This document shows, one piece after another, positions 23,948 through 25,160 of a stretch of 36,695 nucleotides of DNA (position 1 is its first letter; every line of letters begins with the position of its first letter). The position numbers and the translations under genes are program-made. The DNA comes from Parcubacteria group bacterium GW2011_GWB1_40_14 (GTDB lineage Bacteria > Patescibacteriota > Minisyncoccia > Terrybacterales > GWB1-40-14), in assembly GCA_000996085.1 (NCBI GenBank), contig LBYG01000024.1:1-36695 (forward strand). The letters run 5' to 3'. The notes under the pieces were generated by a model. That model did not search any database. It had not been told where the DNA came from and worked only from the letters and a program-made list of their open reading frames with translations.

Positions 23948-23965
23948 GTTTAATTTGAAGCATGA

Positions 23966-24094
23966 ATCCCGTTAGAAAATTGCAATATTTTTATGAATTA
24001 TTATTTATATAAATTTAATTGTTTGATTATTGGTTGCCAAAAAAGTTCACGAATTTTTTTGGCTGTTGATACTAAGGCAATTTTCTAACGGGAT
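23966..24094 (+). promoter_or_regulatory. Inverted-repeat leader element ending at the pilT start codon
   Basis: ATCCCGTTAGAAAATTGC / GCAATTTTCTAACGGGAT, perfect 18 bp; flanked by ATGAAT direct repeats (23962-23967, 24093-24098). Confidence 0.65.
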
Positions 24095-25160
24095 GAATTA
24101 CGAACAAGAACTAGAAGAATTATTATCAACCGTAGCCATGCAGTCGGCCTCAGACGTTCATATAGCAGTAGGACGTTATCCTACTATTCGTGTAGATGAT
24201 GCGTTACTGCCCCTGTCGTCAAAGAAAATATTAACTCCCGAAGACACGGAAAGTTTTGCGCAGGTTATAATGACCAAACCACAGTGGGAAAAATTTTCTT
24301 TAACAAATGAAATAGATTTGGGTTATTCTTTCCGAGACAAAGCACGTTTTCGTGTGAACATTTTCAGACAAAGATCTTTTGTATCAATAGTAATGAGGCT
24401 TATTCCCGCTCATGTTAAATCTATTGAAGAATTGGGTTTGCCTCCTATACTGCACGAGTTTACACGACACGCTCAAGGATTTTTCCTTATGGTGGGACCG
24501 GCGGGCCACGGCAAATCTACGACCTTAGCTGCTTTGATCGATGAAATTAATCACGAAAGGGCGGATCATATTTTGACTATAGAGGACCCGATAGAATATT
24601 TATTTCAACAGGACCGTTCAATTATAGATCAGCGCGAGGTTGGAATAGATACTAAAGATTTTATTACAGCTTTGCGTTCTGCATTCCGCCAGGATCCGGA
24701 TGTAATAATGGTAGGGGAAATGAGAGATGCCGAAACAATTGGAGCAGCTTTAACCGCAGCCGAGACGGGTCACTTGATCTTTTCAACACTGCATACGAAT
24801 AATGCTGCACAAACCATAGATCGTATAATTGATACTTTCCCCGCTGAACAGCAAGGACAGGTTCGTAATCAATTAGCCATGACTTTAACGGGTGTGGTAT
24901 CGGAAAGACTTATTCCACGACTTGAAGGCGGAAGAATTCCGGCTATAGAGGTCATGATCGCCACACCGGCAATACGAAATCTTATACGCGAGAAGAAAAC
25001 GCATGAAGTTGATTTGGTAATTGAAACCAGCGCAGATGACGGCATGTTATCGTTGAACCGATCGTTAGCCGAGTTAGCCAAGAAGCGTGAAATTTCTTTG
25101 GAAAATGCCGAACTTTATTCAAGCAATTCCTCAGAATTAAGAATGCTAATAGGACGTTAA
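24093..25160 (+). CDS. pilT: Type IV pilus twitching motility ATPase PilT
   Basis: MVGPAGHGKSTTLAALID, RQDPDVIMVGEMRDAETIGAALTAAETGHLIFSTLHTN. Confidence 0.93.
   Translation: MNYEQELEELLSTVAMQSASDVHIAVGRYPTIRVDDALLPLSSKKILTPEDTESFAQVIMTKPQWEKFSLTNEIDLGYSFRDKARFRVNIFRQRSFVSIVMRLIPAHVKSIEELGLPPILHEFTRHAQGFFLMVGPAGHGKSTTLAALIDEINHERADHILTIEDPIEYLFQQDRSIIDQREVGIDTKDFITALRSAFRQDPDVIMVGEMRDAETIGAALTAAETGHLIFSTLHTNNAAQTIDRIIDTFPAEQQGQVRNQLAMTLTGVVSERLIPRLEGGRIPAIEVMIATPAIRNLIREKKTHEVDLVIETSADDGMLSLNRSLAELAKKREISLENAELYSSNSSELRMLIGR

Follow-up and report, generated by a model that had tools for sequence, protein, structure and literature searches.

A probable MITE-like mobile element in the pilT start codon of a Parcubacteria genome, and its relatives at start codons

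The window (the whole stretch of DNA analysed, 36,695 nucleotides) contains, at the start of a gene for a pilT-like ATPase, an 18-bp inverted repeat formed by ATCCCGTTAGAAAATTGC and its exact complement GCAATTTTCTAACGGGAT, with a spacer of 93 nt between the arms (23984-24076). The hexamer ATGAAT lies at both outer edges of the repeat (23962-23967 and 24093-24098), and the last two bases of the right arm are the AT of the pilT ATG (24093-24095). A previous sequence-only reading had reported a perfect 18-bp repeat with ATGAAT at its outer edges, and direct reading showed both to be exact. The chance expectation for such a perfect repeat is well below 0.01 per window (36,695 × 150 × 4^-18, calculated with no correction for composition). 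Folding of the pilT-leader region as RNA gave a predicted energy of −44.6 kcal/mol with z = −5.98 and no shuffled sequence as good; folded as DNA, the same region gave z = −6.04 versus shuffles. The features assigned at this locus are compiled in Table 1. The terminal inverted repeat (TIR) of the pilT element has the form YCCCGTTAGAA...TTCTAACGGGR. An in-frame TTG inside the element (24030-24092) causes a mechanical ORF call to start pilT at 24030 (376 aa); as this is 21 codons too early, it represents an annotation trap.

Table 1. Features assigned at the pilT start (positions in the window; TSD, target-site duplication; G001, sister species in the same genus)
Feature	Position	Strand	Basis
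16-codon ORF MNPVRKLQYFYELLFI (then stop) starting at the left ATG; regarded as a by-product	23962..24012	+	
Left TSD copy TGAA, 4 bp; with the preceding A, ancestral ATGAA start of pilT	23963..23966	+	Sequence; family-wide left/right 4-mer identity
Left 18-bp arm, includes one base of the left TSD	23966..23983	+	Sequence
Probable MITE-like element, 127 bp, A-type ends (T...A), AAAATTGC-arm subfamily; terminal A is the first base of the pilT ATG	23967..24093	+	
Internal hairpin GCCAAAAAA..TTTTTTTGGC; similar in kind in the C11:8995 copy of the same subfamily	24036..24063	+	
Right 18-bp arm, includes one base of the right TSD	24077..24094	+	Sequence
pilT-like ATPase (T2SSE), 355 aa, from the rebuilt ATG	24093..25160	+	N-terminus MNYEQEL conserved in G001
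Right TSD copy TGAA; its TG completes the pilT start codon	24094..24097	+	

The genome-wide search for the arm sequence that had been proposed with the sequence-only reading returned the end motif TTCTAACGGGAT 23 times in the source genome (944 kb) and not once in the reversed control. The motif copies paired up at distances of 115-130 bp and formed two main subfamilies distinguished by their arms. The subfamily with AAAATTGC arms comprises the window copy, C16 and C11, as well as C1 with its G-type ends; the other has GTCTTCGGCATAAAAATTT...TACAGACTT arms. One widespread subfamily contains a third, internal TAACGGGA. Altogether, 249 relatives of the element were collected, mostly from Patescibacteria. 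Paired ends were present in 35 of 98 related genomes and in none of the controls, and were also found in named genomes from many Patescibacteria and from Omnitrophota, Desulfobacterota, Nitrospirota, Elusimicrobia and others. Annotated phage and plasmid collections gave no match to the element; 2.9 million viral contigs yielded two exact pattern matches, and the one examined (L313) was located off a start and showed no clear target duplication.

Elements of the family are 95-145 bp long and contain no ORF of transposase length. The ends are conserved over approximately 11 bp, and the paired stem has a median length of 13 bp, the first 8 bp of which were fixed by the search pattern. The outermost base pair was matched in 111 of 112 elements (T-A in 87, C-G in 24), giving two end classes, T..A and C..G, that were always matched between both ends. 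The interiors vary widely between copies and can even consist of whole tRNA genes. Same-end elements with an entire tRNA gene inside (Leu, Thr, Val, Pro, Ala) were observed at L315, L317 and L321 (G023), L325 (G044) and L326 (G004), each lying between the split halves of a further tRNA-like gene. For all three from G023, the broken outer copy was, among 48 tRNAs, closest to the inner one (with one tie with another Val tRNA).

The flanks of 196 distinct elements were compared. The left and right flanking 4-mers were identical at 84, 77, 78, and 84% per position, and the adjoining positions disagreed. Identity over 6 bp of flank amounted to 4.21 versus 2.66 (maximum 2.83) after shuffling the right flanks among elements. 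The duplication was perfect over 4 bp in 126 of these elements, 190 of the 249 relatives had a clear duplication, and the family-wide target was TNNA. That the left and right 4-mers are alike merely because both are start codons is contradicted by the non-start copies. The base beside the CCCG/CGGG ends was Y on the left in 194/196 and R on the right in 194/196 elements; because it is nearly always Y/R and paired between the ends, this base belongs to the element, and a 6-bp duplication was rejected since its outer positions are these element-terminal bases. Thus, the interpretation of ATGAAT as a duplication held in principle but not in length: the duplicated segment is the 4-bp TGAA, and the right ATG takes its first base from the element. 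As judged from the sequence, the right pilT ATG is a hybrid with its A derived from the last base of the element and its TG from the duplication. Mobility with target duplication is well supported by these sequence comparisons.

The rplC gene of the same-genus sister species G001 represents an empty site, in which the same upstream terminator hairpin is followed by TCAAAAATAT and then ATG; it was revealed by a flank-joined pairwise alignment, and a MAFFT alignment opened no insertion gap. The hppA-like, aspS and BNR-repeat genes of G001 are also without an element, with the BNR-repeat and H+-PPase-like loci aligning less cleanly than rplC. At pilT itself, the proposed search for empty sites gave a mixed result. 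In 12 of 16 relatives surveyed, no such element was present near the start, and G020 has one nearby but off the codon; in G001 and the distant G010, the same codon is occupied by elements with other arms and interiors, their left ATG having decayed to AAG or ACG. Likewise, a DUF5667-like gene carries different elements in the source genome and in G001. Such re-use of the same codon across lineages points to a preferred target; an element swap through the shared ends may be an alternative source of the re-used codon. At L220 (G012) and L229 (G028), unrelated palindromic repeats of the ATACGAAT type are found just before the pilT start, hinting that further families share the start-codon habit.

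The suggestion that a target-duplicating insertion had occurred over the start codon was supported in its main point by the dispersed same-end copies, the duplication statistics (n = 196) and the rplC empty site. In our reading, the pilT feature is very probably a non-autonomous, TIR-bounded MITE-like mobile element of 127 bp that integrated in the start codon. According to the sequence, the integrating complex opened the 4-bp target TGAA (bases 2-5 of ATGAAT), and the element T-CCCGTTAG...CTAACGGG-A was joined between two TGAA copies. The terminal A before the right TGAA rebuilt the ATG, leaving the pilT frame complete from 24093, and the mRNA would carry the stem directly 5' of the AUG. For the family, we propose mobilization in trans at TNNA sites with a 4-bp stagger, in which the terminal purine together with TGNA would regenerate a start codon. 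The fetched loci contained neither an autonomous partner nor a transposase bounded by these ends. The source genome (~93% complete) gave no match to Y1_Tnp, DDE_Tnp_1, DDE_Tnp_IS1595 or rve, and none of the Y1, DDE_Tnp_1, IS1595 and rve genes examined in relatives was flanked by these ends. A candidate autonomous parent in L199 (a 1.7-kb pair) proved on inspection to consist of two short elements lying apart.

The position of the elements relative to genes was determined for copies with a target duplication matching in at least three of four positions. In 82 of 151 such elements, an ORF of at least 50 aa began exactly at the edge; gene starts made up 220 of 8675 (2.5%) non-coding TNNA sites in the same loci, a control value based on crude ORF calls. 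In an enlarged set, 106 of the 190 elements with a clear duplication (56%) were located exactly on a start codon. When the starts of ORFs of at least 80 codons were plotted by position, exactly −1 held 76 of them, and no neighbouring position held more than 10. The source genome has 12 exactly paired copies, all of them on starts and in a single orientation relative to the gene, the hosts being rplC, aspS, the H+-PPase-like (hppA-like) gene, a sigma factor gene and pilT, among others. The proportion varied between genomes, with 10/16 on starts in G040, 6/7 in G067 and 0/8 in G026 (exact search). A-type ends were on starts in 67 of 83 cases and G-type ends in 15 of 64; G-type loci have ATG at the left and GTG at the right. 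The outcome of insertion differs by type, A-type elements rebuilding ATG and G-type elements turning ATG into GTG.

Further candidate explanations for the position were tried and rejected. Targeting of transcription starts of leaderless genes was assessed by a TATAAT-like box 12-14 bp upstream, which occurred in 19/111 cases versus 54/456 controls (p = 0.15). Selective use of genes by Shine-Dalgarno status gave no clear difference (motif in 8/111 versus 61/456 control genes, p = 0.08). Targeting of stop codons was discarded because those at position 0 of the TSD were mostly ATGA overlaps, and no TATAAT-like box that would indicate a promoter supplied by the element occurred within 15 bp upstream of the right ATG. 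The 16-codon ORF pointed out in the sequence-only reading is present but is best regarded as a by-product: in 112 start-located elements, the left start triplet was intact in 75, the frame was random, and only one element was open in frame. A role as leader peptide or N-terminal extension was rejected on the same grounds.

A second family of elements, with CCAGGTAGTGAAAATTCGAC...GTCGAATTTCTACTACCTGG ends and lengths of 126-145 bp, was identified. The pilM leader is a full copy (CCAGGTAGT ends, 19338-19475) located between two ATGs. It had been assigned to the same family as the pilT element on the basis of its arm; it belongs to this separate family but shows the same behaviour, and the arm resemblance CC.G.TAG..AAAATT between the two may or may not reflect common descent. 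Left arms with at most one mismatch numbered 57 in the source genome. In 29 of 41 copies read, an ORF started at the right edge in a fixed orientation, most with ATG at the left edge; this value is slightly inflated, as about eight of the 41 came from loci fetched by an ATG-containing pattern. The duplication is 4 bp, usually NATG, with TGTG, CACG, TAAG and AATA in other copies.

Several related observations were made in and around the window. At 21170-21268 and 21843-21941, where the pilO-like gene and the gene after it presumably begin, the second family is represented by two truncated 99-bp copies (100% identical), with the left ATG kept and the right arm and right ATG missing. In a nested arrangement at L004/L005 (G000:C8:2906-3038), a right end of the second family is followed by an element of the first family at one start codon. 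A partnerless left arm CCCCGTTAGAAAATTGC (26702-26717), approximately 70 bp upstream of a prepilin-like gene, is a probable relic. Near a tRNA gene, two 77-bp repeats (15242-15318 and 15623-15699, 95% identical) that contain CCGCCTCTGGCGG palindromes represent another dispersed type, and a AGCGTTTAGCGTTTAG repeat with an inverted copy (29148-29210) is found just upstream of a 1603-aa ORF at 29234.

The strong predicted fold and the consistent position and orientation at starts would also be expected of a structured regulatory leader RNA, a riboswitch-like or translational switch in which initiation would be governed by the stem next to the AUG and the repeat would be preserved for this role; the third TAACGGGA of the widespread subfamily could pair alternatively, and compensatory changes in the arms fit as well. 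However, the host genes (rplC, aspS, H+-PPase-like, sigma factor, pilT) are unrelated, sister species have different interiors or nothing at the same codon, and ~44% of the copies are off starts and still have target duplications. In the arms of the second family, G-T and A-C imperfections were equally common (9 versus 8, leaving out two invariant positions as well as the end that pairs poorly), which does not favour selection at the RNA level. There was no Rfam match, and the leader ORF is not conserved. We consider a leader RNA improbable.

Small palindromic dispersed repeats could also be REP/BIME palindrome pairs mobilized by a RAYT (Y1 tyrosine transposase), and Y1_Tnp is common in the class (54/96 genomes). 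Target duplication is not expected from Y1 transposition, yet the elements have a true 4-bp duplication. The source genome, its sister G001, and G010, G023, G028, G044, G045, G058 and G078 carry elements without a Y1 match, Y1 was present in ~22/35 element-bearing versus 32/61 other genomes, and no tag of the GTAG or CGTC kind was found at the CGGG edge. Mobilization by a RAYT is therefore very unlikely. An RNA intron or translational-bypass element, removed or skipped in expression, was also taken into account: the arms would bring the two ATGs together, and some tRNA-carrying copies are inside split tRNA-like genes. But the gene is already complete from the right ATG, so that removal would restore nothing; the frame from the left ATG to the gene is random, and with an intact tRNA within the element the outer split copy need not function. 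Such an intron-like nature is hardly credible.

With the pilT feature taken as a MITE-like insertion, the excess on start codons could arise in two ways: the enzyme would prefer TGAA in a start-codon context, or codon-rebuilding insertion would be one of the few harmless events in a compact genome with few Shine-Dalgarno motifs. In its strict form, the latter describes an ordinary MITE that inserts blindly, the excess being entirely the result of purifying selection with no targeting. TSD and terminal purine would recreate RTG and thereby spare the gene, few genes in these loci are preceded by a Shine-Dalgarno-like motif (the 61/456 control genes given above), and copies do occur at other sites. 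Against this, TGNA sites other than starts are ~10 times commoner in non-coding DNA (2645 versus 220) and should be at least as harmless, yet few insertions are found there, with TGAA/TGGA duplications in roughly 14-18 of 84 non-start copies versus ~100 at starts. Blind insertion thus remains a serious candidate, though we judge it somewhat doubtful.

Similar start-located elements had the same direction relative to the gene in 259 of 293 pairs and the opposite one in 34. When non-start copies were set in the orientation of the start copies, TNAA was found in 17 clear cases versus its complement in 3, and a second, independent orientation marker gave 7 versus 3; these non-start directions refer to ~20 copies, many assigned by weak similarity. 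The counts are suggestive only of directional integration, with orientation fixed relative to TNAA, which rather than function may set the orientation and would also account for the fixed orientation relative to genes. We tentatively put forward, as a possibility rather than an expectation, that the elements integrate directionally and preferentially in start codons or, with an inner tRNA, in tRNA genes of the same isoacceptor, always rebuilding the target, and that they would be mobilized by an enzyme outside the usual transposases.

In Patescibacteria, whose genomes are very reduced and in which few mobile elements have been characterized, start codons are occupied by at least two separate families of very small elements of this kind. 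Integration truly directed at start codons would constitute a new mechanism, one that might also serve to insert DNA while leaving genes intact. If selection alone is responsible, the elements would still explain a common repeat class, misplaced annotated gene starts and the origin of structured leaders. Testable predictions also follow from the elements, concerning the start codon before insertion, the succession of insertions and the effect on translation. A non-exhaustive search of the open literature, which did not extend to subscription journals or preprints, returned MITE and REP papers of a general kind, with no account of these ends or of insertion at start codons in Patescibacteria.

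Several known systems share individual properties with the pilT family. Rickettsia palindromic elements enter coding sequences in frame, where they are translated. Both are small palindromes tolerated in essential genes of reduced genomes, but of 112 start-located copies of the pilT family, just one keeps the gene frame open across the element. Integrative elements that target tRNA genes rebuild the gene they enter; the pilT family similarly enters essential genes whose function is restored, although through one terminal base together with the 4-bp duplication, or through an entire inner tRNA, and without integrase or cargo genes. With MITEs, which measure about 50-600 bp and carry no transposase gene, the pilT family has in common the short length (95-145 bp), TIRs, target duplication, lack of coding capacity and many copies. 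MITEAba12 (113 bp) has a co-resident parent IS (ISAba12) and shows no trend in its target sequence (PMC6382973), whereas the pilT family has no parent in the searched loci, a TNNA target, more than half of its copies on starts, a fixed orientation relative to the gene and widely differing interiors. REPs are defined by a GTAG or CGTC tag (PMC3733652). Like REP/BIME sequences, the pilT family consists of dispersed palindromes and potential RNA hairpins; unlike them, it has a target duplication, no GTAG/CGTC tag and no Y1 association, and it is located at the starts of genes, whereas REP/BIME sequences are mostly found downstream of genes.
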